Below are positions 13,241 to 45,500 of a DNA stretch of 64,000 nucleotides, one piece after another. Each line of letters starts with the position of its first letter. Positions within the stretch are counted from its first letter, which is position 1. Source of the DNA: Bedellia somnulentella (taxonomy: Eukaryota; Arthropoda; Insecta; Lepidoptera; Bedelliidae); contig OY755178.1 of NCBI GenBank assembly GCA_963576735.1, forward strand, positions 3,906,001-3,970,000, in the 5' to 3' direction. The position numbers and the translations under genes were made by a program. Under the pieces are notes generated by a model, which ran no database searches, had not been told where the DNA came from, and saw nothing but the letters and a program-made list of their open reading frames with translations.

Positions 13241-13244
13241 TTTG

Positions 13245-15092: not shown

Positions 15093-15093
15093 T

Positions 15094-15225
15094 TTGTGGA
15101 AGGTGTTGTCTAAGTTCGGTTTGGGGAGCCAACTTATACGTGCATTGGAGTCACTCTATGAGGATTCCAATGCATGTGTGAGAGTAAACGGAGAAGACAC
15201 GGACTGGTTTGAGATCTCTAGGGGT
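15094..15225 (+). pseudogene. RTE-like reverse transcriptase fragment upstream of the insert
   Basis: Encodes LWKVLSKFG, then LESLYEDSNACVRVNG and DWFEISRG, a middle part of the RT domain. The frame is cut after ISRG by a 430-bp insertion and resumes at 15668 with VRQGCVASPWLFN, so the two pieces were originally one RT. Confidence 0.85.
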
Positions 15226-15655: not shown

Positions 15656-15667
15656 ATCTCTAGGGGT

Positions 15668-16633: not shown

Positions 16634-16645
16634 GTAAGTAAGTTA
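16626..16645 (+). repeat. TAAG-repeat 3' tail of the RTE-like LINE
   Basis: Short TAAG microsatellite immediately after the coding end, typical of LINEs that end in a simple repeat and not in poly(A). B-module sequence follows. Confidence 0.8.
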
Positions 16646-17144
16646 GTGTAGAGATTGTGAAGTTAGGCCTTGTAGAGCTAGCATGTCATAATAAAATAAA
16701 TTAGTGAACGTTCAATGTCCTGCAAAGTGGTTTTGTATGTAAAGTCTAAGTTTTTGTTGATAAACTGTACTGAAACCTTGCTTGAAATATCAAAACAGTA
16801 TAGAAAATTAAATTGAGACAATTAGTAATCTTTTTAAAAAGAGTCATGTTTCACTTCATTATTTTAGGTTTCTAATATTTCAGTTCAGACTAAGGTTAAA
16901 AGATTTGCCACCACCATCACAATTAATCCTTTATTATTACTTCTTTTCCCAACGAAATGAAAAAATGTCCTAAGAATACATCGTATGAAACTCTGGCTAC
17001 CCTGTTTGGGATTTTACAAAAAAAAACGGACGAAATGTATTTTCAACAGTCGATTTATATAATAAATGAAATATATAATGATAAATGAAAAAAAAAACAC
17101 TAATTTCCATTTTATTCAGATAAGCATCCAAACTTACTTACTTA

Positions 17145-17382
17145 CACTCACGGCTGTAAATCCCTAAAAGGGGTAGCCAGAGCTAAGGAATTAGAAATTC
17201 CTCAGCCGCTGTTGGCAATGTGAGTGGGGAAAAGATGGTAAAAATAAAGGTTATCGGTGATGGGTCTCCAACCACATCGCCCAAAAATCGCTTAAAAGCC
17301 ACAATACCGTTAGTCGCCCCTTACATACACCCACCGGCAGAAATGGGGTAGTGTTATTCTAAGCCGACACTTCACAGTATCC
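17145..17382 (-). mobile_element. SINE-3 copy
   Basis: About 240 bp of a family with at least seven copies here. Read on its own strand it ends in the shared tail CTACCCCTTTTAGGGATTTA, then GCCGTGAGTGTAAGTAAG. The opposite end carries GTGTCGGCTTAGAATA. No ORF. Confidence 0.8.
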
Positions 17383-18654
17383 AAACTGAAATGTTAATAA
17401 ATTAAAGTTGCTTGCCTTCGGTCACAAAAGCAGGTCAAACATGAAATAAAAAGATAATAATTCTACCGTCCGTACTAAGTAATCAAACTATAAAACTTTC
17501 TTCCGCAATTTATCGGTGAGAGTTATACAACCATCTTATAAATCACCCCATCCTCCCCTCGAGGGTGCCAGTCTCGTCTGCGAAGGTGTTTATTTGAGAA
17601 GGATGTTCAAATACGCTTCAAATTTTCTTCACAAATACCTGGAACACAAATCCTTTGAAAGCTGATGAAATTTTGAATTAACCCTCCTTCGTAATGTAGA
17701 TAAATTAACTTTGAGCAAAAATACTTTAGTTATATGTTTACAGGTAAATTTTTCATTGGCTGCCTATTCTCAAGACTTTAACCCAAACAAAGGTCGGAAC
17801 GAGCTTTATAATAAAAATTTACCATTTGCCAGACAATTTCGGTAGTTCACAAGGACACAGATCATACCATAAAGCATGATTTGTAACTATATTCACTGTT
17901 TTTAATTAAGATTTAATACAAATGTCCGCCTTTTGACGAACTCGCCGTTCATGAAGTAATAGGCACCAAAAATACTATAAAAATAAATTAAAACGAAGGT
18001 TTGCTTCAAAGTTAACATAATGAAATTATACCGTAACCTTTTGCTATGAAAAACAGACACCCAAAAATATATCTCACAACTTCATCACAACAAAACATCG
18101 AGTTAAAAATGTACCTCGCAAAACCCCAGAGAGATATATTTGGGATGAATTTCTTGAAGCTAAAAATTAAGTGTTGAACACTTTAACATTGAACTCAGGA
18201 CGCTTGTATTTTATAAGAGCCCTTCGTAATATAAAATAAATGAGAACGAGTTCAGGTGGTCGGAACATCGTCCTACTGGGAGCGATAGACCCTGATTGAG
18301 CAGATCAGTCGTTGCGAACTAAACTATCGCAAACTCTAATATAACTCCATGATAGTTTAAAGTTGAATGTCGTCGTTGAGAATACACAACATTTTGTCTA
18401 GCTGATGAGATTTGTGGAACTGGGTTGTATATTAGTTTCGTAGGCATTTTGCGTCGGCATTCATCACACTTTTGTTGTTTTGTAGACAGTGTGTTGGAAA
18501 TTATTGACAAAAAAAACTTTACTTTTACTCCGTTTTTAATTTAATAAAAATATTCGTATTCAAATTTGGTTTTTATTTGTGTTCACGGCTCTCTGTTGTC
18601 CACTTAAAGAATTACTAAGAGAGCACTCATATAAGCGTATGGCACGTTTAATAG

Positions 18655-19021
18655 CATAACATAACATAATATAAACATAAACGTTCACGCCGAATATCCC
18701 CGAAGGGGTTGGCAGAGGTACTAATACTTCTGAACATCACGTGACTTTGTCACCTGGTGTTCAGAGTACCCACGTTTTGCATTGACAGTGTACTCACGTG
18801 ATAGGGGACAAGCCTATCGCCGTTTTGTACGAATAAACTGTCACATGACTAAGTACAACTCAGCCATGTGGGTTTCCTCACGATGTTTTCCCTCACCGTT
18901 AACAACCATGATAAATTAACCACACATATGTCTTTAGAAAAGACAAATTGGTGTAGGCCTGACCCAGGATTTGAACACTAGTCATTTGTACGATAACCAA
19001 GTGTTCTACCCACTGGGCTAT
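18655..19021 (-). mobile_element. SINE-1, full length with tRNA-like head
   Basis: 367 bp with the 12-bp TSD CACGTTTAATAG at 18643-18654 and 19022-19033. The empty site is preserved at about 44965-44980. On the minus strand it starts GTGATAGCCCAGTGGGTAGA (box A region), has a weak box B, and ends in the CCCCTTCGGGG hairpin and a TTATG-rich tail. Transcribed by pol III in principle and dependent on a LINE reverse transcriptase for movement. Confidence 0.9.
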
Positions 19022-19139
19022 CACGTTTAATAGTTGATTGAGAAACCCGTATAATAAGCTCAATCAGTATATAATGAGCAATTTTATGTGTGATTGGAAT
19101 TATTATATAACAAAACCTATCGTACTCAACCAAAGTAGT

Positions 19140-19182
19140 AATCCTTTTAACCCCAACTAGCACTTGGGGTTAAAAGGATTTA
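19140..19182. repeat. 17-bp-arm hairpin in module B
   Basis: AATCCTTTTAACCCCAA is followed after a short loop by TTGGGGTTAAAAGGATT. Conserved at about 45087-45125 and 57928-57968, but precisely absent from the otherwise matching copy at 38930-38945. Confidence 0.85.
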
Positions 19183-19341
19183 ACTAGGGTATTCTTGAAC
19201 ACTCCGTATTTACCTAATAAGGGACTAACACCATAAAAAAGGTTCAAAACCACAAATCAGCTAATAGGTATTGGTTATTCATCGTTCGAATAAAACCAAC
19301 TTTATATTCACTTGAAAAGTTCAAATTGGAATATTGGAGTT

Positions 19342-19510
19342 TATGAAATTGGAAGCAGCTTCGCGGCCGCCGCTCGAACTCGCTGTATTTACAATTCAAT
19401 TGGAAAGAGTCGCTTCTTGCTATTTTATTAGTAAAAGTGTAAACACTCGCGGCGCTGACACCAGCCGGAGGACAACTTCCAAATAGAATTTCTTACAAAA
19501 CATACACCCA
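19342..19510 (+). other. Conserved GC-rich block of module B
   Basis: Contains GCAGCTTCGCGGCCGCCGCT and GGCGCTGACACC(A/G)GCCGGAGGAC, then ACCCAGGTAAACACTTGG, which looks like a splice donor. Copies are at 39090-39270, 45284-45460, 58131-58305 and, diverged, 58690-58810. It is much richer in GC than its surroundings. The frame closes at different points in different copies, so a coding role is unproven. Confidence 0.5.
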
Positions 19511-23091: not shown

Positions 23092-23880
23092 GAAGATAGA
23101 TGTTGCCAAGACGAGCGCATATGACTCGCACTGTCCAAACGTTATCAGATCTCATGTAGAGCCAAGCTTCTAACACTACACGCCCTAACTCTACAAGGCC
23201 TAACCTCACAAACTCTACACCGTAGTCAAAATATGTGGCTTGGCTATTTCGCTACATTCACATCGGCGTACGGTGAAAAATTAATTCACTTTTGTGTTAC
23301 ACAATAGTTTTTGTAGTAATGAACGGCCAAGCTAAGTTTGTGAAGTTAGGCCTTGTAGAGTTAGGGCGTGTAGTGTTAGAAGCTTGGCTCTACATGAGAT
23401 CTGATAACTTTTTGACAGTACGAGTCATATGCGCTTGTCTTGGCAACATTTTTCAAAAAAACGTTGTTGGTGGTATTTCGTTTCTTTTTGTAAGTTGTTT
23501 GTAACATTTTTTTTAACAAGAAGTACCTATACATATATATCTGTTGGCATCAAGTTTTAGATCAGATTAGACCTCTAGCGTCAAAATTGAAAATTACAGG
23601 TTTCAAGGAAGTTAGGCCTTGTAGAGTTAGGGCGTGTAGTGTTAGAAGCTTGGCTCTACATGAGATCTGATAACTTTTTGACAGTACGAGTCATATGCGC
23701 TTGTCTTGGCAACATTTTTCAAAAAATCGTTGTTGGTGGTATTTCGTTTCTTTTTGTAAGTTGTTTGTAACATTTTTTTTAACAAGAAGTACCTATACAT
23801 ATATATCTGTTGGCATCAAGTTTTAGATCAGATTAGACCTCTAGCGTCAAAATTGAAAATTACAGGTTTCAAACAAACTC
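23092..23880. repeat. Palindromic repeat P with a 272-bp tandem duplication
   Basis: 23101-23216 is the reverse complement of about 23336-23450. The right part (from GAAGTTAGGCCTTGTAGAG to ATTACAGGTTTCAA) is then repeated almost exactly: about 23336-23608 and 23609-23880. Related single arms are at 13072 and 42880. Short frames inside are shadows. Confidence 0.8.
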
Positions 23881-24284: not shown

Positions 24285-26124
24285 TGCAGAGCTTAATATT
24301 AAAGACAATTTATTTATTTGTACATCAATTGTGTTGTAAACACTTGTATTAATTTAATGATCTATTTACTCGTGATCTGAGACTCCATTATAATGGAACT
24401 TTATGCACAATAGAATAGATATAGGTAGTAAGGAAAATATTTATTCTTTAGTATATTAAGGTTTTCAAAGAAAGATCATTAATGATTTTACTTTATATTC
24501 AATCTTTACTCATGGGTATTAATCCCAGAGAGCCAGAGTTTTAAGTAAAACCTCAACCAAATTTGGCTAATGATTATGGAATACATTATATTGGATTGAA
24601 AGAAGAAAAGAAAAAAGGGACACCATCTAAATCTCCTATCTGACACATAAAAAGCCTTAAGGTTTCGTTCACGACACACACGAGAAGAAATGAGTTAGTT
24701 CTTTTTTAAGCCAGTACGCACAGTTAAATTTCATATAAATTTTCATTGATACATTTTATAATGAAATAATTTGATGTACGTATAATACCCTGCAAAGTAG
24801 TTTTGTAAATAAAATCTAAGTTTTTGTAAATAAACTGTACTCAAACCTTGAATGAAATTAAATTGAGACAATGGCGTGAGTATATGTATGAATGTATGTA
24901 TGTAATATTTCAGTTCAGACTTAGGTTAAAACATCTTCCACCATCATCACAATTATCCTTTATTATAACATCTTTTTCTAACGAAATTACAAAAGTGTCC
25001 TAAGAATATATTATATGAAGCTCTGGCTACCCTGTTTACGATTTTACTAAAAAACTGACGAAATATTATTGAAATTTATTTTCAATAGCCGATTTCAAAG
25101 TTGATAAACGAAACAAAACGTATTTCCGTTTCATTCAGATTAGTACACAAAATGAAATGCTCATAAATTAAAGTTGCTTGTCTTTGGTCACGAAAGGAGG
25201 TCAAACATGAAATAAAAGATAATAATTCTACTGTCCTTACTAAGTAATCAAACTATAAAACTTTCTTCCGCAATTTATCGGTGAGAGTTATACAACCATC
25301 TTATAAATCACCCCATCCTCCCCTCGAGGGTGCCAGTCTCGTCTGCGAAGGTGTTTATTTGAGAAGGATGTTCAAATTTTCTTCACAAATACCTGGAACA
25401 CAAATCCTTTGAAAGCTGATGAAATTTTGAATTAACCCTCCTTCATAATGTAGATAAATTAACTTTGAGCAAAAATATTTCCGTTAAATGTTTACAAGTA
25501 AATTTTTAATTGGCCGCCCATTTCAAGGCTTTTCCTCAAAAAAAGGTCGGCACGAGCTTTAAAATCAAAATTTACCATTTTCCAGAGAATTTTGGTAGTT
25601 CACAAGGACACAGAACATACTATAAAGCATGATTTGTAACTATATTCACTGTATTTTAATTAAGATTCAATGCAAATTTTCGATTTTGACTAACTCGCCG
25701 TTCATGAAATAATAGATACCAAAAATACTGTAAAAAATAATTAAAACGAAGGTTTGCTTCAAAGTTAACATAATGAAATTATACCGTAACCTTTTGCTGT
25801 AAAAAACAGACACCCAAAAATATATCTTACAACTTCATCACAACAAAACACCGAGTTTAAAATGTATCTCACAAAACCCCATGAATATCTTGAAGCTTAA
25901 AAATTAGGTGTTGAACACTTTAACACTGAACTCAGAACGCTTGTATTTTATAAGGGCCCTTCGTCATATAAAATAAATGAGTTCAGGTGGTCGGAACATC
26001 GTCCTACTGGGAGCGATAGACCCTGATTGAGCAGATCAGTCGTTGCGAACTAAACTATCGCAAACTCTAATATAACTCCATGATAGTTTAGAATTGAATG
26101 TCGTCCTTGAGAATACACAACGTT
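24285..26124. repeat. Module B copy 2, left part
   Basis: Collinear with 55400-57400. It stops at 26124, inside the block around GAGAATACACAACGTT, where the 12.4-kb foldback element is inserted, and resumes at 38530. A minimal LINE tail (GGCGTGAGTATATGTATG at about 24874-24903) is inserted here; sister copies lack it. Confidence 0.8.
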
Positions 26125-29100
26125 ACCGGTGTGAAGTTAGCGGCCGATTTCAGCGGCCGATTATAAACCGACCAAATTAAAAAGTCTTCAATTCAAACAC
26201 ATAAAACCATTCAAATACTGCATAAAACATGCTAAATAAACAAGTTATTCATCGATTTATGTTCAGACTCCTACTAAAGGTAAGACAGATAAACCTAGAC
26301 TCCCTTAAACCTAATGTAGAGTAAGTGGTCAAAAGAAAAATCCAAAAAGAAGTATTTGACATCGACCCAAAGCTTCTAGCCACCCTGAAAGTGGTGTCAA
26401 TAGAAGCGTGTGAATATGTCCTTTAAAACCACGACCCAATCATACCATTATGAAGAGCTTTTAACCCTCCTTTGATATGTAGAGTATAAAGTCGAAATGA
26501 AAAATATTAAAAAAACCGATTAGATATAGACCCCAAGGCTTCTAGCCACTCTGTAAGTGGTGTCAGTAGAAGCGCCTCGGTTAGTTCTATGCAAAACATA
26601 TCAAGTCATATTATTATGAAGAGCTTTTGACCCTTCATTCGTATGGTACAATCCAGCGGCCGATGGCGCTCATACGAATAGCTAAGATAAATTTGACCAA
26701 AAGCTTCTAGCCACACTGTAAGTGGTGTCAATAGAAGCGCCTTGGTTAGTTCTATGCAAAACATATCAAGTCATATTATTATGAAGAGCTTTTAACCCTT
26801 CATTCGTATGGTACAATCCAGCGGCCGATTGCGCTCAAACGAATAACTAAGATAAATTTGACCAAAAGCTTCTAGCCACACTGTAAGTGGTGTCAATAGA
26901 AGCGCCTTGGTTAGTTCTATGCAAAACATATCAAGTCATATTATTATGAAGAGCTTTTAACCCTTCATTCGTATGGTACAATCCAGCGGCCGATTGCGCT
27001 CAAACAAATAGCTATGATAACGTCGACCAAAAGCTTCTAGCCACCCTGATAGTGGTGTCAGTAGAAGCGTATGAATATGTCCTTTAAAACCACGACCCAA
27101 ACATACCATTATGAAGAGCTTTTAACCCTCCTTTGATATGTAGAGTATAAAGTCGAAATGAAAAATATTAAAAAAACCGATTAGATATAGACCCAAAGCT
27201 TCTAGCCACTCTGTAAGTGGTGTCAGTAGAAGCGCCTTGGTTAGTTCTATGCAAAACATATCAAGTCATATTATTATGAAGAGCTTTTAACCCTTCATTC
27301 GTATGGTACAATCCAGCGGCCGATTGCGCTCAAACAAATAGCTATGATAACGTCGACCAAAAGCTTCTAGCCACCCTGATAGTTGTGTCAGTAGAAGCGT
27401 ATGAATATGTCCTTTAAAACCACGACCCAAACATACCATTATGAAGAGCTTTTAACCCTCCTTTGATATGTAGAGTATAAAGTCGAAATGAAAAATATAA
27501 AAAAAACCGATTAGATATAGACCCCTAGGCTTCTAGCCACTCTGTAAGTGGTGTCAGTAGAAGCGCCTCGGTTAGTTCTATGCAAAACATATCAAGTCAT
27601 ATTATTATGAAGAGCTTTTAACCCTTCATTCGTATGGTACAATCCAGCGGCCGATTGCGCTCATACGAATAGCTAAGATAAATTTGACCAAAAGCTTCTA
27701 GCCACACTGTTAGTGGTGTCAATAGAAGCGCCTTGGTTAGTTCTATGCAAAACATATTAAGTCATATTATTATGAAGAGCTTTTAACCCTTCATTCGTAT
27801 GGTATAATCCAGCGGCCGATGGCGCTCATACGAATAGCTAAGATAAATTTGACCAAAAGCTTCTAGCCACACTGTAAGTGGTGTCAAAAGAAGCGCCTCG
27901 GTTAGTTCTATGCAAAACATATCAAGTCATATTATTATGAAGAGCTTTTAACCCTTCATTCGTATGGTATAATCCAGCGGCCGATGGCGCTCATACGAAT
28001 AGCTAAGATAAATTTGACCAAAAGCTTCTAGCCACACTGTAAGTGGTGTCAAAAGAAGCGCCTCGGTTAGTTCTATGCAAAACATATCAAGTCATATTAT
28101 TATGAAGAGCTTTTAACCCTTCATTCGTATGGTATAATCCAGCGGCCGATGGCGCTCATACGAATAGCTAAGATAAATTTGACCAAAAGCTTCTAGCCAC
28201 ACTGTAAGTGGTGTCAAAAGAAGCGCCTCGGTTAGTTCTATGCAAAACATATCAAGTCATATTATTATGAAGAGCTTTTAACCCTTCATTCGTATGGTAC
28301 AATCCAGCGGCCGATTGCGCTCAAACGAATAGCTAAGATAAATTTGACCAAAAGCTTCTAGCCACACTGTTAGTGGTGTCAATAGAAGCGCCTTGGTTAG
28401 TTCTATGCAAAACATATTAAGTCATATTATTATGAAGAGCTTTTAACCCTTCATTCGTATGGTATAATCCAGCGGCCGATGGCGCTCATACGAATAGCTA
28501 AGATAAATTTGACCAAAAGCTTCTAGCCACACTGTAAGTGGTGTCAAAAGAAGCGCCTCGGTTAGTTCTATGCAAAACATATCAAGTCATATTATTATGA
28601 AGAGCTTTTAACCCTTCATTCGTATGGTACAATCCAGCGGCCGATTGCGCTCAAACGAATAGCTAAGATAAATTTGACCAAAAGCTTCTAGCCACACTGT
28701 TAGTGGTGTCAATAGAAGCGCCTTGGTTAGTTCTATGCAAAACATATTAAGTCATATTATTATGAAGAGCTTTTAACCCTTCATTCGTATGGTATAATCC
28801 AGCGGCCGATGGCGCTCATACGAATAGCTAAGATAAATTTGACCAAAAGCTTCTAGCCACACTGTAAGTGGTGTCAAAAGAAGCGCCTCGGTTAGTTCTA
28901 TGCAAAACATATCAAGTCATATTATTATGAAGAGCTTTTAACCCTTCATTCGTATGGTACAATCCAGCGGCCGATTGCGCTCAAACAAATAGCGATGATA
29001 ACGTCGACCAAAAGCTTCTAGCCACCCTGATAGTAGTGTCAGTAGAAGCGTATGAATATGTCCTTTAAAACCACGACCCAAACATACCATTATGAAGAGC

Positions 29101-29335
29101 TTTTAACCCTCCTTTGATATGTAGAGTATAAAGTCGAAATGAAAAATATTAAAAAAACCGATTAGATATAGACCCAAAGCTTCTAGCCACTCTGTAAGTG
29201 GTGTCAGTAGAAGCGCCTTGGTTAGTTCTATGCAAAACATATCAAGTCATATTATTATGAAGAGCTTTTAACCCTTCATTCGTATGGTACAATCCAGCGG
29301 CCGATTGCGCTCAAACAAATAGCTATGATAATATG
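26125..29335. repeat. Left arm: 165-bp satellite array
   Basis: About 18 monomers after the unique end (26125-26380). Each carries AGCGGCCGATTGCGCTC (a CGGCCG site), AAGCTTCTAGCCAC...GTGGTGTCA..AGAAGC (a short hairpin) and GAAGAGCTTTTAACCCTTC. Two monomer types alternate in blocks: one with TCGTATGGTACAATCC, one with TGATATGTAGAGTATAAAG and CGATTAGATATAGACCC. Monomer-to-monomer spacing of 165 bp can be read at 26821-26986 and 27977-28142. Confidence 0.9.
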
Positions 29336-29570
29336 ATTTTTTTTTTTTTTTTTTTTTTATTTATTTAAAGACTCACAGACAGAGGACTTACAACAAAAGT
29401 AACAATAGTAAATCTAAATAACTATCCTGCACGTTGCAGTCTCTATAAAAAGTGAGTACAGCTTGCATACAAAATTATTATAAAGCTATAAATATGATTT
29501 TAACAACAAAAAAAATATATGTAAGAAAAGCATAAAATAACAGTAAAATAAAATAAGATTAATAACAATT

Positions 29571-32483
29571 TCAAAAATTACTGTCTATTTTAAAAGACTT
29601 AACAAAACTAATAGGGGCATGCAAAATATCGAAGCTTTCTTGGTGACGGTTGTAGGTGTTCTGAATACGCGTCATAGGAGCCTGCGTACCTATGTTCGTA
29701 CGGAAAGGTAGGGAATTAAATGACTTGCGATTCGACAATCTTGAAGCCTGGCGTGGTACGCGCAAAAAGATTCTACCTAACAACGTTTCCGAGTCGATCT
29801 TACCATTAACAAGCTTAGAAAGAAAAATAAGATCGTTTCTAGTTCTCCGATTTTTGAGTGTTTCAAGGCGGTAGTGTTCAAGTCGAGCAGCGTACGAAAC
29901 CAAAGACTTACTCTTACAGTCGGCATAGGCGAGGTGGTAGCAGAAACGTTTCTGAACACGCTCGATGCGGTTCTCATGCACCGCGTACCTAGGGTTCCAG
30001 ACTGTGCTACAGTATTCCAGTGCACTACGCACGTAAGCATTATACAGAGTAATCAGCACGTGTGGGGAGCGGAAGACCTTCGCCTTCCGAATCACAAAAC
30101 CCAGCGATTTACTGCCTTTTTTTACTACAGTATCAATATGGTGACGGAAACTGACAGCGCTATCGAAGTGAACACCTAGGTCTTTAATTACGTGTACCTG
30201 CTCCAGCTCAACGCCATTTATTTTATATAAGGGACATGACGGTGTGCGCTTTCTAGTGAAATTTATCGAGAAGCACTTAGAGGTATTAACAGACATACCA
30301 TTCATGTCACACCACGAGGAAATTCTGTTAAGGTCTTCCTGAAGTAGTTTGCCATCGACATCACTCACTATCTCTTTATACATCTTAAGATCGTCTGCGT
30401 AAAGGAGGACCTTAGAATTCTTCACCGATTCCTGCAAGTCATTCACAAATATGACGAAGAATAGCGGCCCGAGATGGGAACCCTGGGGAACACCGGATGA
30501 AATCGTAAGCTTGTCCGACTTGTGACCACTGCATACTACCATTTGGCTACGGTTTCTTAAGTAGCTTTCGCACCACCGCAAAAGTGAGCCATGGATACCC
30601 ATGTGGGAAAGCTTTTTTACGAGGAGTCCGTGGTCAACAACATCAAAAGCCTTTGCGAAGTCTGTGTATACGGCGTGTACCTCTTTGTTAGCGTCAAGAG
30701 ACAACATTAAATCGTCTGAGAAAACAGTAAGGTTGGTACTTGTTGACCTCTTTGTCAAGAAACCGTGTTGTTCATGAGACAGTAGATTTTTTACCTGCCA
30801 ATATAACCGTTTTTGAACCAGTGATTCGAAAAGTTTCCCAAATGTAGACAGAATAGATATAGGGCGGTATTTTTCCACATCGCCTAAGTCATTTGTTTTC
30901 GGTATAGGCACAATTCGGGCTAACTTCCAATTGCAAGGAAATTGGCCAAGTTGCAAGGATTTGTTAAATATTATAGCCAGAGGAATCGCTAAGCTTTTGG
31001 CACATCTTTTCGCGAAAAGAGGCGGAATATCATCAGGGCCTGCTCCCTTAAGTTGGTCCAATCTGGCAAGGGCCGTTTGAATGTCATTGTCACTAAAAGT
31101 AATTGCAGATATAATATTGGTGGTCGAGAGTTCACTCTGAGGCAAATAAGTAGGGTTGGTAGGCACTGCTATTGAAGGCCTGTAAACACTGTTAAAAAAC
31201 TTTGCAAACAAATTACAGATACTCTCCCCATCATAAGCTTTGTCTGGACCGTACCTGATACCTAACGGGATGCTAGAAGAATTCCGACGCGTGTTCTTCA
31301 CAAATGTCCAAAAGGCCTTTGGATTCTTCTTTATGTTTTCTGCCATCCTTGCTTTATAACTGTTGTAGCAAGAGATCGTCAGTTTTGAACAGCGTTCGCG
31401 TAATATATCGAAAGTAACTTTGTCTCTAGGGTTATTAAATCTTTTGTATTTTTGGTGGCACCTTTTCTTTTCTTTCAAAAGTTTTATTAGCGGGCTTGAG
31501 TACCAGACTGGAAAACGCGAAGGCTGGCGTGTTTGGATTGGGGTATGTTTGCTAATTATTATTTTCAGCTTTTCATAAAAAGAGTCTACAATGGAGTCTA
31601 TATTATTCATACCATCAAATAAGGACCGCCACCCTATATCACATATATCTCTATTTATGAGGTCGTAATTTGCTTTGTAAAAGTTTAGCGAAGTCGATTT
31701 ACTTTGAACGAGAGTTTTCACATTCTTGAGCTTCAGAGAAAACTCTAGAGCTGGGTGGTACACATCCTCTTTGGTAAGCGGATTAAGAGAGTGGTGAGGG
31801 CTTGTCTCTAAGATATCTACATTATCTTGGAACATTACTAGATCGAGCGTTCTGTCAAGACTATTGGTTGTTCCGTTACATTGGAGTAAGTTATTATACA
31901 TGATACAGTCAAGTAATTCAGAATGAGTGTTGAGAACTGGAGTACTGGGATTGTATACATTTTTTGTGCTCGATTGAAGCCAATGTATCTGGGACAAGTT
32001 AAAATCACCAACAATAATATTGTGATTGTTATTTTTGCTTTGTTCTGTAAGTATTTTGTCTATATTTGAGCAAAGTGCTCTCACATAAGCCGGTTCCAAG
32101 GGCGGCGGCAGATACACAACACATATGTTTATTACAGACGTACTATTGCGTTTAGGAATTGTTAAAGTTAGCCAAAGCAATTCGCAGTCACATTCCCACT
32201 CCACGCGTCGACGTGACTGAAACTTTTTGTTCAAAGCAATCAATACTCCACCACCTCCAACTTTAGAATTAATACTATTAGCAACTCTATCGCGTCTAAA
32301 GACGTTGTACCTGTCATCTAGAAATTCGTAGTCAAACACCGAGTCGTTTAGCCATGTTTCCGTGAGAATTATAGCGTCAAATTCAGAAGCCATTGCACTA
32401 CATTTAAAGCTATCTAATTTTGTTTTCATGCCCCTGACGTTTTGATAATACATAGATAATGAAAAGTTCTGATTATGAGCCAT
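29571..32483 (-). CDS. LINE ORF2: AP endonuclease and reverse transcriptase
   Basis: 970 residues with a genuine ATG at 32483. The N-terminal endonuclease shows YYQNVRGMKTKL, ILTETWLND (catalytic Glu), VVYLPPP and IVGDFNLSQIHW. A linker follows (CYNSYKARMAENIKKNPKAF, a segment frequent in CR1/Jockey-superfamily ORF2). The RT shows YRPISILSTFGKLFESLVQKR, HGFLTKRSTSTNL, TDFAKAFDVVDHGLL, GVPQGSHLGPLFFVIF and YADD (Y at residue 695). The C-terminus (KDLGVHFDSAVSFRHHI, ALEYCSTVWNP) lacks RNase H. No internal stop. It nicks the target and reverse-transcribes the element RNA. It lies 59 bp downstream of ORF1. Confidence 0.92.
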   Translation of the reverse strand: MAHNQNFSLSMYYQNVRGMKTKLDSFKCSAMASEFDAIILTETWLNDSVFDYEFLDDRYNVFRRDRVANSINSKVGGGGVLIALNKKFQSRRRVEWECDCELLWLTLTIPKRNSTSVINICVVYLPPPLEPAYVRALCSNIDKILTEQSKNNNHNIIVGDFNLSQIHWLQSSTKNVYNPSTPVLNTHSELLDCIMYNNLLQCNGTTNSLDRTLDLVMFQDNVDILETSPHHSLNPLTKEDVYHPALEFSLKLKNVKTLVQSKSTSLNFYKANYDLINRDICDIGWRSLFDGMNNIDSIVDSFYEKLKIIISKHTPIQTRQPSRFPVWYSSPLIKLLKEKKRCHQKYKRFNNPRDKVTFDILRERCSKLTISCYNSYKARMAENIKKNPKAFWTFVKNTRRNSSSIPLGIRYGPDKAYDGESICNLFAKFFNSVYRPSIAVPTNPTYLPQSELSTTNIISAITFSDNDIQTALARLDQLKGAGPDDIPPLFAKRCAKSLAIPLAIIFNKSLQLGQFPCNWKLARIVPIPKTNDLGDVEKYRPISILSTFGKLFESLVQKRLYWQVKNLLSHEQHGFLTKRSTSTNLTVFSDDLMLSLDANKEVHAVYTDFAKAFDVVDHGLLVKKLSHMGIHGSLLRWCESYLRNRSQMVVCSGHKSDKLTISSGVPQGSHLGPLFFVIFVNDLQESVKNSKVLLYADDLKMYKEIVSDVDGKLLQEDLNRISSWCDMNGMSVNTSKCFSINFTRKRTPSCPLYKINGVELEQVHVIKDLGVHFDSAVSFRHHIDTVVKKGSKSLGFVIRKAKVFRSPHVLITLYNAYVRSALEYCSTVWNPRYAVHENRIERVQKRFCYHLAYADCKSKSLVSYAARLEHYRLETLKNRRTRNDLIFLSKLVNGKIDSETLLGRIFLRVPRQASRLSNRKSFNSLPFRTNIGTQAPMTRIQNTYNRHQESFDILHAPISFVKSFKIDSNF

Positions 32484-32542
32484 TGAAAAAAGGAATTAGC
32501 ATATAATGCGCATGCAAAAGCTTAAGATAAAAACAAACAAAA

Positions 32543-33595
32543 TTAAGAAGTAGCATCTTTTTCAGAATCCTTGCCCAGCTGTCCAAGTACTTCAATATCC
32601 TTGACCCAGATCACGCGCGACTTCTCGTTCTTTCTAAGTAGGATTCGGCCGTTGCGGATCCACAAAAAATCGAAGCCATGGGATTTTTTGAATTTTCTGG
32701 CTTCAGCTTGAAGAGCACGATTTGCTGGTGAAAGATGTTCATTCACAAAAACTGGCGTCTTATCTCCGGCTATACCCAGGTGCGAGCTGTTCAACTTCTC
32801 AGTCGGGTTTTTCCGGTTGAAGGTTTGGCAAGCAGCTATTACCGTGTCACGGATTAGAGGCGAAGATAGCTTAATTATTACTGCGCGAGGTCGCGGCGAC
32901 TTCTGGTCCACTTTGGCAACTCGTACGCAAGATACGATTTGCGACTCTTGCAAGGGACATGATACGACCTTACAAAGTTGCGAGAACACGTTCGAAAGGT
33001 TTTCTGATGAATGCTCTGGCAAGCACTGAATTTCTAGGTTGCATTCCCGGGCCTGCTGCTCCATTTGCTGCACCTTTTGATTAAGCAGGCGGAGGTCTTC
33101 CCTAATTTTATTGTTCTCTGTTCGGAGAAGTTTAGTTTCGCCACGCAATGATGTAACTTCTTTGGTCAGGTCATCAAATTTATTCGACAGAAACTCCACG
33201 GTTTTAAGCAACTCTGGGATCATTTCCGTATTTTTCTGTATTGCTGAGATCTCTGACATGGGGCCCTTAAGCGAAGATTCAATCGTCGCCTCTAGTTTTT
33301 TTAGGAGAGAGGCCTCAAACGAGTTAGAAAATTCACCTATCTCAGCTTTGCTCGGTGAGCACTCGGAGCGATGAGGCTCGTTTTCCGAGGATCCAACAGG
33401 AACGTCGTTGCTAACCCTGGGTTTATGTGGCTTGCATTCCGGGCATTTCCATGATGACTTCGCTTTCACAGAGAGCTTTCCGAAATTTTCTTTGCTCATG
33501 TTCACACATATATAATGGTAGAAAAGAGTACACGAGTGACATACCAGTTTCTCTGTCACACTAATAACCTTCTGACAGGCGTTGCAGGAACTCAT
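32543..33595 (-). CDS. LINE ORF1: PHD-like zinc finger, coiled coil, FP-type C-terminal domain
   Basis: 350 residues from the ATG at 33595. The N-terminus has a PHD-like C4HC3 finger: CNAC, CHSC, FYHYIC and WKCPEC in the expected order within the first 55 residues. After a polar linker, residues ~95-190 form a coiled coil (TEMIPELLKTVEFLSNKF, LRTENNKIREDLRLLNQKV). The C-terminal part, with NLEIQCLPEH, FVNEHLSPANRALQAEARKF, FLWIRNGRILLRKNE and VIWVKDIEVL, matches the RNA-binding/FP-type domain common in ORF1 of insect CR1-group LINEs. Likely role: RNA chaperone and particle formation. The PHD plus coiled-coil layout is known for CR1-like LINE ORF1. Confidence 0.88.
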   Translation of the reverse strand: MSSCNACQKVISVTEKLVCHSCTLFYHYICVNMSKENFGKLSVKAKSSWKCPECKPHKPRVSNDVPVGSSENEPHRSECSPSKAEIGEFSNSFEASLLKKLEATIESSLKGPMSEISAIQKNTEMIPELLKTVEFLSNKFDDLTKEVTSLRGETKLLRTENNKIREDLRLLNQKVQQMEQQARECNLEIQCLPEHSSENLSNVFSQLCKVVSCPLQESQIVSCVRVAKVDQKSPRPRAVIIKLSSPLIRDTVIAACQTFNRKNPTEKLNSSHLGIAGDKTPVFVNEHLSPANRALQAEARKFKKSHGFDFLWIRNGRILLRKNEKSRVIWVKDIEVLGQLGKDSEKDATS

Positions 33596-33660
33596 AGTGA
33601 TAGTTTCTTCCGGTAACCCACTCGCGCTTCTAGGACTACGAATCCCGTAGCAGGTCGGTC

Positions 33661-34141
33661 GTAGCCTCTACTGCGTAGCAGATTCACTGACGTCACGTTG
33701 CGTAGTCCTTACTTGGAGGTAGGTGTACCGAGATTTCGTCACGTCGTAGTCAAGCAGATTTGGCCTAACGGTTACTTGCTTGACTTTACACCCGACGACC
33801 CGCGGTTCAAATCTCAAGACTGCCGGTGATTTTTTCTTCTTTAATATCACAGACGGAACACTTTAACAGCCGTTTGTCTCACTCAAGCCCCGCCCACTGG
33901 GTGGAGTCAGTCCATTAAAACACTGTAGGTGCGACAGAGAATTGGAATTCACTACTAGCAACCAATCACGAATTTTCACGTTTGAATTTATAGCAACTAA
34001 TATCGACACGTCTGCTCACAGCGATGAGCGGCGATGAACTGACTATATATATGACAATAGCATATAGATAGAAAAATTACAAAATGGATAGAATTTGAAA
34101 CATGCAGGGGATGGATACATGAAACATGTGCAAGGGCTACA
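33661..34141. other. Interior of the foldback element upstream of the Ulp1-like ORF
   Basis: Contains a tRNA-like box pair at 33760-33825 (TGGCCTAACGGTTA and GCGGTTCAAATCT) that does not fold as a tRNA, so probably an old SINE. Further on are CCGCCCACTGGGTGGAGTC (hairpin), CCAATCACGAATT (CCAAT-like, 33960) and a TATATATAT stretch (34045) about 100 bp before the ORF start. The CCAAT and TATA-like sites could form a promoter for the ORF, but this is speculative. Confidence 0.4.
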
Positions 34142-34825
34142 ATGAAACAATTTGACATAACAAAAAAAGTTGTTTGTTTCTTGTGCCAAACTAAGGAACC
34201 CACAAAAACAATTGCAAACTCTGATGTTATAAGCACAGAAATTTTCAATATTAAAAATACAGTCGCTCAGTTAAACAAAGACGACCTGGATTCATTGAAA
34301 CCACCAGAGTATCTTTCCAGTTTTGTAATTGATCATGCTCTTTATTTATTAAATAATGATGAATATTACATTTTACCAGTTGAGCAAGCAAGTCACCTGT
34401 ATGGTCCCACATCTAAACAAAATTCTTTTTACGATAGATTAGAAATTCAGTTAGGTAAGGATGTTATATTTCCTATATGTCTCAATCACCGTTATTTTCT
34501 CGTATTTTTATCAATTGCATCCAAAGTACTGCAAATTTTCGATCCTTTGGGATATGAACCCACAGTCGGTAAACAGATTATTATTGAAACCAATAAACTT
34601 TTGCAGATTAAAAAATATAAGTTAAAATTTAGCAAATATGAATCGCCAGCTCATGTTTTGCAAACAGATGGCTATAATTGTGGGCCCATAATTATTTATT
34701 TCTTTGAGAGTATAAAAAATAAAACCAAACCTACCTCAAAAATTAACTTTGATGAATATCGCTTTCATATAAAAGAATTGATACTTCAGAAAAGTGATGT
34801 AGTAAAGTTTGAAAACAATCAATAA
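34142..34825 (+). CDS. Ulp1-like (C48) cysteine protease encoded inside the foldback element
   Basis: 227 residues, single exon, ATG at 34142, with AATAAA overlapping the sequence just after the stop. The C-terminal half fits the Ulp1/SENP cysteine protease fold: His116 in CLNHRYFLVF, Asp134 in QIFDPLG, Gln174 and Cys180 in LQTDGYNCGP. The spacings (18 residues His-Asp, 46 Asp-Cys, 6 Gln-Cys) are close to those I recall for yeast Ulp1 (17, 49, 6). The N-terminal part has CFLC and a conserved-looking LYLLNNDEYYILP. Such enzymes cleave SUMO or related tags; Ulp1 domains are also known as passengers of Mutator-type transposons. No intron, transposase or other gene accompanies it. It could be a captured host gene, a transposon accessory gene, or less likely a Polinton-type protease. 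The intact triad suggests function. Confidence 0.8.
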   Translation: MKQFDITKKVVCFLCQTKEPTKTIANSDVISTEIFNIKNTVAQLNKDDLDSLKPPEYLSSFVIDHALYLLNNDEYYILPVEQASHLYGPTSKQNSFYDRLEIQLGKDVIFPICLNHRYFLVFLSIASKVLQIFDPLGYEPTVGKQIIIETNKLLQIKKYKLKFSKYESPAHVLQTDGYNCGPIIIYFFESIKNKTKPTSKINFDEYRFHIKELILQKSDVVKFENNQ

Positions 34826-35168
34826 AATCTCTTAAATTTATATTTTAATTTAGAATATATTTTGCAGCAAAATTAAACTGCCTTCACTAGTATTGGCGGA
34901 AATCAAAGTTTTCATAAAAAAATTGGTAATCACATATTCATTTTGATATTCTGTAAAATATATAACCACGCTATCAAACCTCGTGAAAATGAAACCTCAA
35001 AAATGTCCTCAAAAATAATGACTAACATGTTTGAAACATCAAAAGTTTAACATAACTGACTACCGTTGCTTCGGACGGTAATTTAAGAGAGAAAAAGCAA
35101 CAAGAAACTCTTTACATTTATATTTGTCAAATGTAATTTATACAATTTTGCGTTTTACATATCCTCTT
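34826..35168. other. 3' flank of the Ulp1-like ORF
   Basis: AT-rich DNA with AATAAAATC right after the stop codon as a possible polyadenylation signal. No further ORF or repeat recognised. Confidence 0.45.
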
Positions 35169-35375
35169 CACCATGATAGCTCAGTGGCTGAAACCCCGCT
35201 TATCGTGCAGAAGGTTCAAATACCGGTCGGGCCGACACCAATTTGTCATTTCTAAAGAAATAGGTGTGGTTAATTTATCATGGTTGTTAACTGTGAGGAA
35301 CCTCACATGGCCAAGTTGTACTTTGGCATTTGACAGTATACTCGTATACAGGACTTCCCCCTAACACGTAAGTCA
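35169..35375 (+). mobile_element. SINE-1, 5' part with tRNA-like head
   Basis: Begins CCATGATAGCTCAGTGGCTG, has box B-like GGTTCAAATACCGG, and follows the SINE-1 body to about the CTAACACGTAAGT position with small deletions. Diverged, hence older than the copies at 18655 and 43116. Confidence 0.75.
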
Positions 35376-35519
35376 ACCAAAACCTCCCGCAGAAATCACT
35401 ACTGAGTTTAGTAGCTATAAAGTAACCGAACTGCAAAAGACGCGTTGAAATCATCTGATATTGCAGCCCTTAAATTTATTACAATTATAGTAAAATGGCG
35501 CTAAACTTAACATGTCTTT

Positions 35520-35632
35520 TCTCACGAGGAAACCCACATGGCTTGGTTGTACTTAGTCATGCGACAGTGTGTTCGTATAAAAATGGCAATGAGCCTGCTC
35601 ACTATCACGTAAGTACATTGTACGTTGAATTT
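35520..35632 (+). mobile_element. SINE-1 internal fragment
   Basis: CGAGGAAACCCACATGGCT through GCCTGCTCACTATCACGTAA matches the middle of SINE-1. A second, separate piece or the remainder of a rearranged copy. Confidence 0.65.
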
Positions 35633-35689
35633 TTCCCTATTTCTTAGGTGTTAAGTTTTATTCACAAATTCCGACCAAATACTCTACAC

Positions 35690-38520
35690 ATAAATTGAAG
35701 GTTTAATTGCTGTTCATAATAATATGACTTGATATGTGTTGCATAGAACTAACTAAGGCGCTTCTTTTGATACTACTTCCTGAGTTGCTAGAAGCTTTTG
35801 GTCGACGTTATCATAGCTATTTGTTTGAGCGCAATCGGCCGCTGGATTGTACCATACGAATGAAGGGTTAAAAGCTCTTCATAATAATATGACTTGATAT
35901 GTTTTGCATAGAAATAACCAAGGCGCTTCTATTGACACCACTAACAGTGTGGCTAGAAGCTTTTGGTCAAATTTATCTTAGCTATTCGTATGAGCGCAAT
36001 CGGCCGCTGGATTGTACCATACGAATGAAGGGTTAAAAGCTCTTCATAATAATATGACTTGATATGTTTTGCATAGAACTAACCAAGGCGCTTCTATTGA
36101 CACCACTTACAGTGTGGCTAGAAGCTTTTGGTCAAATTTATCTTAGCTAATTGTATGAGCGCAATTGGCCGCTGGATTGTACCTTAAGTAAATGAAGGGT
36201 TAAAAGCTCTTCATAATAATATGACTTGATATGTTTTGCATAGAACTAACCGAGGCGCTTCTACTGACACCACTTACAGAGTGGCTAGAAGCTTTGGGTC
36301 TATATCTAATCGGTTTTTTTAATATTTTTCATTTCGACTTTATACTCTACATATCAAAGGAGGGTTAAAAGCTCTTTATAATGGTATGTTTGGGTCGTGG
36401 TTTTAAAGGACATATTCATACGCTTCCACTGACACCACTATCAGGGTGGCTAGAAGCTTTTGGTCGACGTTATCATAGCTATTTGTTTAAGCGCAATCGG
36501 CCGCTGGATTGTACCATACGAATGAAGGGTTAAAAGCTCTTCATAATGGTATGTTTGGGTCGTGGTTTTAAAGGACATATTCATACGCTTCTACTGACAC
36601 TACTATCAGGGTGGCTAGAAGCTTTTGGTCGACGTTATCATAGCTATTTGTTTGAGCGCAATCGGCCGCTGGATTGTACCATACGAATGAAGGGTTAAAA
36701 GCTCTTCATAATAATATGACTTGATATGTTTTGCATAGAACTAACCAAGGCGCTTCTTTTGATTCCACTTCCTGAGTGGCTAGAAGGTTTTGGTCAAATT
36801 GATCATAGCTATTTGTATGAGCGCAATCGGCCGCTGGGTTGTACCTTACGAATGAAGGGTTAAAAGCTCTTCATAATAATATGACTTGATATGTTTTGCA
36901 TAGAACTAACCAAGGCGCTTCTATTGACACCACTTACAGTGTGGCTAGAAGCTTTTGGTCAAATTTATCTAAGCTAATTGTATGAGCGCAATTGGCCGCT
37001 GGATTGTACCTTACGAATGAAGGGTTAAAAGCTCTTCATAATAATATGACTTGATATGTTTTGTATAGAACTAACCGAGGCGCTTCTACTGACACCACTT
37101 ACAGAGTGGCTAGAAGCTTTGGGTCTATATCTAATCGGTTTTTTAAATATTTTTCATTTCGACTTTATACTCTACATATCAAAGGAGGGTTAAAAGCTCT
37201 TCATAATGGTATGTTTGGGTCGTGGTTTTAAAGAACATATTCATACGCTTCTACTGACACCACTATCAGGGTGGCTAGAAGCTTTTGGTCGACGTTATCA
37301 TAGCTATTTGTTTGAGCGCAATCGGCCGCTGGATTGTACCATACGAATGAAGGGTTAAAAGCTCTTCATAATAATATGACTTGATATGTTTTGCATAAAA
37401 CTAACCAAGGCGCTTCTACTGACACTACTTACAGAGTGGCTAGAAGCTTTGGGCCTATATCTAATCGGTTTTTTTAATATTTTTCATTTCGACTTTATAC
37501 TCTACATATCAAAGGAGGGTTAAAAGCTCTTCATAATGGTATGTTTGGGTCGTGGTTTTAAAGGACATATTCATACGCTTCTACTGACACCACTATCAGG
37601 GTGGCTAGAAGCTTTTGGTCGACGTTATCATAGCTATTTGTTTGAGCGCAATCGGCCGCTGGATTGTACCATACGAATGAAGGGTTAAAAGCTCTTCATA
37701 ATAATATGACTTGATATGTTTTGCATAGAACTAACCAAGGCGCTTCTATTGACACCACTTACAGTGTGGCTAGAAGCTTTTGGTCAAATTTATCTTAGCT
37801 ATTCGTTTGAGCGCAATCGGCCGCTGGATTGTACCATACGAATGAAGGGTTAAAAGCTCTTCATAATAATATGACTTGATATGTTTTGCATAGAACTAAC
37901 CGAGGCGCTTCTTTTGACACCACTTACAGTGTGGCTAGAAGCTTTTGGTCAAATTTATCTTAGCTATTCGTATGAGCGCAATCGGCCGCTGGATTGTACC
38001 ATACGAATGAAGGGTTAAAAGCTCTTCATAATAATATGACTTGATATGTTTTGCATAGAACTAACCGAGGCGCTTCTACTGACACCACTTACAGAGTGGC
38101 TAGAAGCCTTGGGGTCTATATCTAATCGGTTTTTTTAATATTTTTCATTTCGACTTTATACTCTACATATCAAAGGAGGGTTAAAAGCTCTTCATAATGG
38201 TATGATTGGGTCGTGGTTTTAAAGGACATATTCACACGCTTCTATTGACACCACTTTCAGGGTGGCTAGAAGCTTTGGGTCGATGTCAAATACTTCTTTT
38301 TGGATTTTTCTTTTGACCACTTACTCTACATTAGGTTTAAGGGAGTCTAGGTTTATCTGTCTTACCTTTAGTAGGAGTCTGAACATAAATCGATGAATAA
38401 CTTGTTTATTTAGCATGTTTTATGCAGTATTTGAATGGTTTTATGTGTTTGAATTGAAGACTTTTTAATTTGGTCGGTTTATAATCGGCCGCTGAAATCG
38501 GCCGCTAACTTCACACCGGT
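35690..38520. repeat. Right arm: inverted 165-bp satellite array
   Basis: About 16 monomers in inverse orientation to the left arm, with the same two monomer types, and a unique terminal part (38280-38520) that mirrors 26125-26380. The innermost monomers (35710-35800, 36730-36830) are the most diverged, the outer ones the most alike. Confidence 0.9.
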
Positions 38521-38529
38521 CACAACGTT

Positions 38530-39370
38530 TTGTTTAGCTGATGAGATTTGCGGAATTGAGTTGTATATTAGTTCCGTACGCATTTTGTGTCGGCATTCAT
38601 CTCATCACACTCTTTTTGTTTTGTAGATAGTGTGTTGGAATTCGGAGACAACCAAAATTTAACTGAACTTACTTAAAGAGTATTAAATTTTGTAAAAAAA
38701 ACGGATTAAAATTAGGTTTTCATTTGCGTTTATGGTTCTCTGTTGTCCACTTAAAGATTTTACTAGAAACAAAAATAATTACTAAGAAGGCACTCATATA
38801 AAGCTTATGGCACGCTTAATAGTTTATTGAGAAAACCGTATAACAAGCTCAATCCGTAAATTATGAGCAATTTTATGTATGATTGAAATTATTATATAAA
38901 AAACCTTTCGTACTCAACGGAAGTAGTAGGAAGTAGTAACTAGGGTATTCTTGAACACTCCGTATTTAATAAGGGACTAACACCATAAAAAAGGTTCAAA
39001 ACCACAACTCAGCTAATAGGTATTGGTTATTCATCGTTCGAATAAAACCAACTTTATATTCACTTGAAAAGTTCAAATTGGAATATTGGAGTTTATGAAA
39101 TTGGAAGCAGCTTCGCGGCCGCCGCTCGAACTCGCTGTATTTACAATTCAATTGGAAAGAGTCGCTTCTTGCTATTTTATTAGTAAAAGTGCAAACACTC
39201 GCGGCGCTGACACCGGCCGGAGGACAACTTCCAAATAGAATTTGTTACAGAACATACACACAGGTAAATACTTGGTGTTTGAGAAACTCCAAATCAATTT
39301 TACTTGCAATTCTACAAGAACCAAGAAAGTAAATCCAGTCGCTTTTGCTGTGATTGAAATGATTTGAATT
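38530..39370. repeat. Module B copy 2, right part
   Basis: Continues the B module interrupted at 26124 (TTGTTTAGCTGATGAGATTT onward) and ends with the GC-rich block at 39090-39270. It lacks the hairpin found at 19140 in other copies. Confidence 0.8.
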
Positions 39371-42879: not shown

Positions 42880-45500
42880 AGGTGTAGAGTTTGTGAAGTT
42901 AGGCCTTGTAGAGCTAGCATCTCATAATAAAATAATTTAGTGAACGTTCAATGTCCTGCAAAGTGGTTTTGTAAGTAAAGTCTAAGTTTTTGTAAATAAA
43001 CTGTACTCAAACCGTGCTTGAAATATCAAAGCTGTATAGAAAATTAAATTGAGACAATTTGCAACCTTTTTAAAAAGAGTATTGTTTCACCTCATTATTT
43101 TAAGGTTTCTAATATGACGTGACGACGTGATAGCTCAATAGGTAGAATACCGGTTAACGTGTAAGCGACTAGTGTTCAAATCGCGGGTCGGGCCTACACC
43201 AATTTGTCTTTTCTAAAGACATATGTTTGGTTAATTTATCATGGTTGTTAACGGTGAGGGAAAACATCGTGAGGAAACCCACATGGCTGAGTTGTACTTA
43301 GTCATGTGACAGTGTATTCATACAAAACGGCGATAGGCCTGCCCCCTATCACGTGAGTACACTGTCCATGCAAAACGTGGGTACTCTAAACACCGGGTGA
43401 CAAAGTCACGTGATGTTCAGAAGTATTAGTACCACTGCCAACCCCTTCGGGGATATTCGGCGTGAACGATTATGTTTCATGTTTATTTATGTTCTAATAT
43501 TTCAGTTCAGACTTAGGTTAAAAAATCTGCCACCATCATCACAATTCATCCTTTTTTATAATATCTTTTCCCAACGAAAAGACAAAAATGTCCTAAGAAT
43601 ACATCGTATGAAATGCTGGCTACCCTGTTTGGGATTTTACAAAAAAAACTGACGAAATGTATTTTCAATAGTCGATTTTAACGTTGATAAATGAAAAAAA
43701 CACTAATTTCCGTTATATTCAGATAAGTATCCAAACTGAAATGTTAATAAATTAAAGTTGCTTACCTTCGGTCACAAAAGCAGGTCAAATATGAAATAAA
43801 AAGATAATAATTCTACTGTCCTTACTAAGTAATCAAACTATAAAACTTTCTTCCACAATTTATCGGTGAGAGTTATACAACCATCTTATAAATCACCCCA
43901 TCCTCCCCTCGAGGGTGCCAGTCTCATCTGCGAAGGTGTTTATTTGAGAAGGATGTTCAAATACGCTTCAAATTTTCTTCACAAATACCTGGAACACAAA
44001 TCCTTTGAAAGCCGATGAAATTTTGAATTAACCCTCCTTCATAATGTAGATAAATTAACTTTGAGCAAAAATATTTCCGTTAAATGTTTACAAGTAAATT
44101 TTTAATTGGCCGCCCATTTCGAAGCTTTTCCCCAAAAAAAGGTCGGAACGAGCTTTATGATCAAAATTTACCATTTGCCAGACAATTTCGGTACTTCACA
44201 AGGACACAGATCGTACCATAAAGCATGATTTGTAACAAAATTCACTGTTTTTAATTAAGATTCAATACAAATTTTCGCCTTTTGACTAACTCGCCGTTCA
44301 TGAAATAATAAGCATCAAAATTACTGTACAAAAAAATCAAACGAAGGTTTGGTTCAAGTTGGCTTTTGCTGTGAAAAACTGACACCTGAAAATATAGCTC
44401 TAAACTTCATCACAACATAACATCTAGTTAAAAATATATCTCGCAAAACCCCAGAGAGATATATTTGGGATGAATTTCTTGAAGCTAAAAATTAGGTGTT
44501 GAACACTTTAACATTGAACTCAGGACGCTTGTATTTTATAAGGGCCCTTCGTCATATAAAATAAATGAGAACGAGTTCAGGTGGTCGGAACATCGTCCTA
44601 CTGGGAGCGATAGACCCTGATTGAGCAGATCAGTCGTTGCGAACTAAACTATCGCAAACTCTAATATAACTCCATGATAGTTTAGAGTTGAATGTCGTCG
44701 TTGAGAATACACAACATTTTGTCTAGCTGATGAGATTTGCGGAACTGGGTTGTATATTAGTTTCGCACGCATTTTGCGTCGATATTCATCACACTCTTGT
44801 TATTTTGTAGATAGTGTGTTGGAAATTATAGTTAAAAAAACTTGACTTTTACTCTGTTTTAATTTAATAAGAAATGTTCGTATTCAAATTTGGTTATTAT
44901 TTGTGTTCACGGCTCTCTGTTTTTCACTTAAAGAATTACTAAGAGAGCACTCATATAAGCGTATGGCACGTTTAATAGTTGATTGAGAAACCCGTATAAT
45001 AAGCTCAATCAGTATATAATGAGCAATTTTATGTATGATTGGAACTATTATATAAAAAACCTATCGTACTCAACGGAAGTAGTAATCCTTTTAACCCCAA
45101 CTGGCACTTGGGGTTAAAAGGATTTAACTAGGGTATTCTTGAACCCTCCGTATTTACCTAATAAGGGACTAACACCATAACAAAGGTTCAAAACCACAAC
45201 TCAGCTAATAGGTATTGGTTATTCATCGTTCGAATAAAACCAACTTTATATTCACTTGAAAAGTTCATATTGGAATATTGGAGTTTATGAAATTGGAAGC
45301 AGCTTCGCGGCCGCCGCTCGAACTCGCTGTATTTACAATTCAATTGGAAAGAGCCGCTTCTTGCTATTTTATTAGTAAAAGTGCAAACACTCGCGGTGCT
45401 GACACCGGCCGGAGGACAACTTCCAAATATAATTTCTTACAAAACATACACCCAGGTAAACACTTGGTGCCTCGAGAAACTCGAAGTCAATTTTACTAGC
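42880..45500. repeat. Module B copy 3
   Basis: Collinear with the other B modules and interrupted only by SINE-1 at 43116-43491. It provides the empty sites for the insertions at 18655 and 26125. The hairpin is at about 45087-45125 and the GC-rich block at 45284-45460. In this copy the block has an ATG-started frame of about 70 codons (from 45287) because a TAG is changed to TAT. Confidence 0.8.
43116..43491 (+). mobile_element. SINE-1, full length (reference copy)
   Basis: 376 bp flanked by TTCTAATAT at 43107-43115 and 43492-43500. Order: tRNA-like head (GTGATAGCTCAATAGGTAGA, box A; GTGTTCAAATCGCGG, box B), body, and 3' end CTGCCAACCCCTTCGGGGAT plus ATTCGGCGTGAACG and a T/ATG-rich tail. Best full copy in the window. 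Confidence 0.9.

Follow-up and report, generated by a model that had tools for sequence, protein, structure and literature searches.

A family of satellite-armed transposons, probably of the Mutator/Rehavkus type, in Bedellia somnulentella

The stretch analysed here, referred to as the window, is 64 kb of contig OY755178.1 of Bedellia somnulentella. It contains one insertion of 12,396 bp (window positions 26125-38520), which we regard with considerable confidence as the gutted copy of a satellite-armed transposon; a DDE transposase predicted to be of the Mutator/Rehavkus type, which two sister copies still encode, is likely to have moved it. Two cousin families in the same genome have nearly the same ends of about 60 bp, and one of them carries an unrelated satellite. 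The whole analysis concerns one genome and its assembled sequence, in which arrays could be misassembled. One Pfam family of moths and butterflies, Lipoprotein_11, is present in this genome and in 0 of 14 control genomes, in indirect support of a lepidopteran host.

The window copy and its family

The window copy begins and ends with the inverted sequences ACCGGTGTGAAG...CTTCACACCGGT at 26125 and 38520, and it lies between two exact copies of a 9-bp target-site duplication, CACAACGTT (left, 26116-26124; right, 38521-38529). When both strands of the window were scanned, this 9-mer occurred only at the two flank sites. The left terminal domain (26125-26360, + strand) starts with ACCGGTGTGAAG, contains AGCGGCCGATT twice (26139-26149 and 26152-26162) and is the reverse complement of the right terminal domain (38285-38520, - strand), the outer 236 bp of the two arms matching exactly; over the outer 1,403 nt of each arm the complementarity is 99%. 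The flanks, joined without the element, matched window positions 44124-45321 in one piece (82% over 1,259 columns), and pieces crossing the junction identified two further empty sites at 17772-18654 (85%) and 56821-57546 (86%). The matching ends, the exact duplication and the empty sites in sister modules bear out the preliminary description of this DNA, which had proposed a single mobile unit. The repeated modules lie at about 17400-19400, 25100-39200, 43700-45400 and 56400-58200, with segments 66-98% alike; two of them are about 12.7 kb apart, and the element is inserted in one module.

Tandem 165-bp monomers make up the two arms, which run in opposite orientations at 26364-29331 (+) and 35696-38281 (-) by blastn, with 16.9 copies at 26538-29331 and 14.6 copies at 35696-38107 reported by Tandem Repeats Finder (TRF). 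The arms had been described as opposite arrays of about 3 kb each, which fits the left one (3.0 kb) and overstates the right one (2.6 kb). The right arm also has an inner domain of 266 bp (35428-35693, -), whose inverted partner is present in copies C25 and C411; a left partner was not found in the window copy. The plan of an arm is a terminal domain, an array and an inner domain, the last being seen in C25 and C411.

The interior of the window copy is not the original one, and what is left is a nested retrotransposon and the last quarter of the transposase, neither of which the preliminary description mentions. The former, a non-LTR (long terminal repeat) retrotransposon of the long interspersed nuclear element (LINE) type with approximate limits 29340-33595 (-), encodes a reverse transcriptase/endonuclease (29571-32483) and an ORF1-like protein (32543-33595), and its poly(A) end faces the left arm. 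The transposase remnant (34058-34822, +) comprises only the finger and Ulp1-like part; it corresponds, with 98% identity, to residues 808-1062 of the intact open reading frame (ORF), has one in-frame TAG and overlaps an open frame at 34142-34825. A tRNA-like stretch near 33800 was dropped, as ARAGORN reports none.

To find relatives, the genome was searched with the first 20 bp of the end, allowing up to 2 mismatches. There were 215 matching termini (105 forward and 110 reverse), against 1 + 0 for the reversed pattern that served as control. Pairing was based on 100 of these 215 termini, all exact, with neighbours less than 50 kb apart. All 33 neighbouring pairs were convergent, spanning 641-41,859 bp (median 8,030), and the remaining 34 of the 100 termini had no partner within 50 kb. 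An exact 9-bp target duplication was present in 34 of the 39 pairs tested: 25 of 27 newly read pairs had it (one other had one mismatch and one had three), as did 8 of the first set of 11 pairs, in which two had 8 bp and C17 had none, and at C29 a 9-bp duplication spans 45,846 bp of mostly unread interior. Copy C14, the twelfth read whole, was left out of this count as it is without a left end. Further copies with 9-bp duplications and terminal parts that occur as pairs had both been anticipated. With 215 termini against 1 in the control, convergent pairs and 9-bp duplications, the notion of separate satellite blocks was rejected for the family.

Copies range in size from 641 bp to 45.8 kb. 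The number of monomer anchors per arm was 4-55 (24 arms of 12 fetched copies), and the right arm of C3 holds at least 60 monomers over more than 10 kb, the end of the array not being reached. Small copies of 2.3 and 2.6 kb hold a 183-bp array; the 641-bp copy has inverted ends of 85 bp and an exact 9-bp duplication, and TRF reports no array in it. Long inverted repeats composed of tandem units whose number varies between copies are the foldback architecture that had been suggested from the window copy. Free arrays of the monomer, which had also been envisaged, did not appear: of at least 378 matches, every one listed lies within about 14 kb of a family end or a transposase ORF, in a search made once with 30 of 114 candidates scored. 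Viral contigs gave 24 pattern matches, with no relative among them.

These results also bear on whether the structure could have arisen in assembly, or from a chance meeting of two independent satellite blocks in opposite orientation. Copies C7, C69 and C18 each contain 200 N, which makes their lengths and those of their arrays uncertain, and elsewhere in the window a perfect inverted repeat surrounds a 200-N gap. However, the window copy contains no N, and the same ends with 9-bp duplications recur on many contigs, which leaves this explanation with a negligible probability.

Several copies had features of their own. The copies at C16:3716988 and C19:12802980 apparently lie in the same repeated target sequence, with insertion points four bases apart. 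In C50:32545-41323 the left end and its partner differ at 81 of 300 sites, partly through an insertion; the 9-bp duplication is exact and the interior has reverse-transcriptase-like ORFs by eye. The element at C26:2029438-2049064 contains a stop-free frame of 2,478 codons (9154-16587 of the joined stretch), probably a nested retroelement.

A predicted transposase and comparison with known elements

In two sister copies the reading frame is free of stops and specifies a protein of about 1,062 amino acids, so the longer, transposase-encoding copy that the preliminary description had looked for exists. The protein is predicted to have a Mutator/IS256-like DDE core, a PHD-type finger and an Ulp1-like protease. 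It gave a model match to ISCth4, which is of the IS256 type, and the predicted RNase H-like core has C-x2-H between the second D and the E, a position at which we take this motif to be a mark of the Mutator group. In the intact ORF the PHD finger scored 17.8 bits, below the cut-off of 24; relatives P0007 and P0013 exceeded the cut-off with 32.8 and 24.9 bits, and an alignment profile matched PHD chains with E 2.1e-5. Pfam MULE (PF10551) had no match in the intact ORF and was found only in relative P0010, at 19.5 bits against a cut-off of 27.6; we therefore use the label Mutator/Rehavkus-like and not canonical MULE. For the intact ORF, Pfam listed no THAP match at E up to 10 and no FLYWCH match. 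Among the Foldseek matches listed for the DDE part, the rows were taken up by Ulp1 relatives, and an AlphaFold model from five sequences was uninformative (predicted local distance difference test score, pLDDT, 41.5). Relative P0007 (1,459 amino acids) has a YqaJ-like viral recombinase domain behind its PHD finger and no recognised Ulp1 domain.

Rehavkus elements are described as having 9-bp duplications, a PHD finger, a minisatellite next to the terminal inverted repeat (TIR) and TIRs of 26-400 bp (PMC6446971); the 236-bp terminal domain in Bedellia falls within this range, whereas the whole arm, at kilobase scale, is beyond it. Minisatellites next to the TIR are present here as arrays in both arms, with an extra 153-bp array in C25. 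Rehavkus-1_TC of Tribolium castaneum (PMC10218199) is 9.5 kb long, and the 164-bp satellite TCsat23 makes up part of its inverted termini; it resembles the Bedellia element in the 9-bp duplication given for Rehavkus, in the PHD finger and in having tandem monomers of similar length in the inverted termini. Its arrays are given as mostly five and eight monomers, whereas one arm in Bedellia reaches at least 60 and more than 10 kb. The likeness to Rehavkus described here is one of features. Bedellia has three families with shared ends and two unrelated satellites. The additional array in C25 lies between transposase ORF and arm (joined positions 9677-10115, period 153), and further matches to this repeat occur in C411 and C17.

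Tetris/TIR-220 of Drosophila virilis has a flanking domain, tandem repeats of about 220 bp and an inner domain, with 8-10 bp duplications, 37 bp common to end and monomer and, in two of its three complete copies, repeats that group together (PMC4079207). It thus shares with the Bedellia family the three-part arm plan, a stretch common to end and monomer, and the grouping of like repeats. Tetris has no known coding copy and its TIRs reach at most 1,735 bp, whereas Bedellia has uninterrupted coding copies and longer arms; TIR-220 also occurs in long arrays resembling satellite DNA, some contigs consisting of repeats only, in contrast to Bedellia, where no free array was seen. Tm1 of root-knot nematodes, a Mutator/Foldback element with a Phantom-like transposase (PMC3169594), is alike in its composite repeat TIRs, 9-bp duplications and Mutator transposase. 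Its units are about 14 bp, and the Phantom subclass to which it belongs is recognised by a finger of the FLYWCH type, which Tm1-A has in incomplete form; for the Bedellia protein no FLYWCH match was listed.

Foldback-like TIRs are also known in the P superfamily, in Galileo of Drosophila, which has a THAP domain and long, internally repetitive TIRs, and for which binding by the transposase was shown by experiment (PMC3688188). Galileo offers a model for arms as transposase-binding arrays, although in Bedellia such binding would follow only from inference and no THAP match was listed. That the Bedellia unit is a foldback element of another superfamily such as P/Galileo, or a composite of an unrelated transposase and satellite blocks, seems very improbable given the 9-bp duplications in 34 of 39 pairs, the ISCth4 model match, the C-x2-H and the absence of a listed THAP match.

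A 2026 survey of arthropod MULEs treats Rehavkus as an outgroup, and the longest TIR that it lists for Lepidoptera measures 1,193 bp (PMC13359780). Word searches of open-licence papers found no paper on this Bedellia family; a Repbase entry could exist. The kind of element is already known, as Rehavkus with a TCsat23 member, and neither the satellite-armed transposon (Rehavkus-1_TC/TCsat23, Tetris/TIR-220) nor the link between satellites and transposition is the novelty it was first taken for, both being in print (PMC10218199, PMC4079207). What is new is the scale, the combination of shared ends and unrelated satellites, the order of the monomers and the uninterrupted coding copies in one genome.

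Shared ends and different satellites in cousin families

One cousin, 72% identical over transposase residues 320-1058 with one stop, lies at C19:16138443 (23,336 bp, exact 9-bp duplication). Its end agrees with that of the main family at 58 of 60 bp and is divergent beyond. In its left arm of about 7.1 kb, monomers of 163 and 166 bp alternate; on the right side only the end was read. The blocks TATGAAGAG[CA]TTTTAACCC, AAAGCTTCTA and CAGCGGCCGATT (the last in X monomers) are kept in the monomers of both families, and CAGCGGCCGATT occurs twice in the end as well. The other cousin, at C6:19827401 (23,758 bp, exact 9-bp duplication), has a 1,140-codon open frame whose protein is 57% identical over residues 138-1058, and its end agrees at 56 of 60 bp. 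A 183-bp monomer forms the inverted arrays of its two arms, which measure at least 3.2 and 8.06 kb, and the similarity of this monomer to the 165-bp monomer or to its own end was no better than that of shuffles. By these comparisons the satellite of the 72% cousin is related to the 165-bp monomer and that of the 57% cousin unrelated.

Because the ends are nearly alike and the satellites unrelated, the ends appear to persist while the satellite is replaced; the stable parts of the lineage would be the transposase and the end of about 60 bp. Kilobase-scale arrays stand behind the ends in all three families (both arms read in the main family and the 57% cousin, one in the 72% cousin). The end motif repeated in one monomer type in two of three families is a possible transposase-binding site. 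As a general rule, the idea that the monomer is a repeated end motif was rejected, the 183-bp family being without the motif.

Monomer order and the role of the arms

The 24 arms of the 12 fetched copies yielded 439 monomers (292 distinct). Classed by their halves, these are of three types, A, B and C; a fourth combination would be possible but was unseen, with about one unit in ten not fully scorable. The left arm of the window copy has the type string CAABCBCAAAAAAAABCa. Of the 90 units that come after a B, 77 are C (2 of these partly scored), 12 are unscored and one is B. Counted from a hairpin-like block, the pattern resolves into two kinds of unit, one of which is hardly ever followed by its own kind, and a 495-bp higher-order repeat is indicated by the excess similarity seen at lags 3 and 6.

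The nearest neighbour of a monomer was in the same element at a frequency of 0.658 (0.109 by permutation) and, with its own arm excluded, in the partner arm at 0.332 (0.052 expected). Unequal exchange, by which the arms had been suggested to grow and shrink, is expected to leave two traces that are seen here: arm size that varies between copies, and monomers whose closest likeness lies inside their own element. The outer 300 bp were identical between arms in 4 of 11 pairs (C9, C7, C411 and C26), and none of 10,000 random pairings of arms came as close as the true one. Two counts qualify this likeness: no more than 12 of 22 ends had their partner among the nearest ends, and private variants were common to both arms in only 3 of 11 pairs, so part of the arm likeness may be plain common descent. 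As proof of gene conversion, private variants were judged weak.

In the mechanism that we propose, the transposase would recognise the nearly invariant end of about 60 bp and, in two of the three families, may also bind the CAGCGGCCGATT motif that recurs along the arms; movement would most likely be cut-and-paste, array length would be set by unequal exchange, and gene conversion between arms would keep the pair alike. Since the end is near constant and the satellites are not, what counts in the arms is likely to be their architecture (long, repeated and inverted) more than any one fixed sequence. More tentatively, and with odds that we place on the unfavourable side, transposase and ends of about 60 bp would stay almost fixed while a satellite of nucleosome scale is made and homogenised inside the inverted arms, carried to the chromosomes by every insertion and later swapped for an unrelated one, the arms serving by architecture and not by sequence.

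Alternatively, the arms may be a passive by-product of slippage and unequal exchange, the 60-bp ends alone driving movement and the satellite having no role, for which we see a substantial if somewhat less than even chance. The third family, which keeps the ends with an unrelated 183-bp monomer and no end motif, and the 641-bp copy, duplicated target and all, speak for passive arms and against a function in movement. The kilobase-scale arrays behind the ends of all three families, and the blocks TATGAAGAG[CA]TTTTAACCC, AAAGCTTCTA and CAGCGGCCGATT that are kept in two families where the rest of the monomer diverges, argue for functional arms instead.

Two further features of the window lie outside the element. 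At 13384-17145, a LINE-like inverted repeat of 1,211 bp, 100% complementary, surrounds a 200-N gap (14893-15092) and is probably an assembly artefact. At 23342-23872, a 266-bp unit is present in tandem duplicate, 99-100% identical.

Unrelated satellites often have units of 150-200 bp, and the origin of satellite DNA is a long-standing question. The Bedellia family is a visible source of satellites, with dozens of paired insertions with duplicated targets, some of which have coding capacity, and one insertion can deliver two satellite arrays. Monomer types, the growth of arrays, the likeness of arms and the exchange of one satellite for another can all be followed in a single genome, and it becomes directly testable whether the arms serve as arrays of transposase-binding sites, for which Galileo is the demonstrated case (PMC3688188), or are passengers. 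The nearly identical ends with an unrelated satellite in a related family suggest that elements of this kind are likely to create, disperse and exchange satellite DNA.

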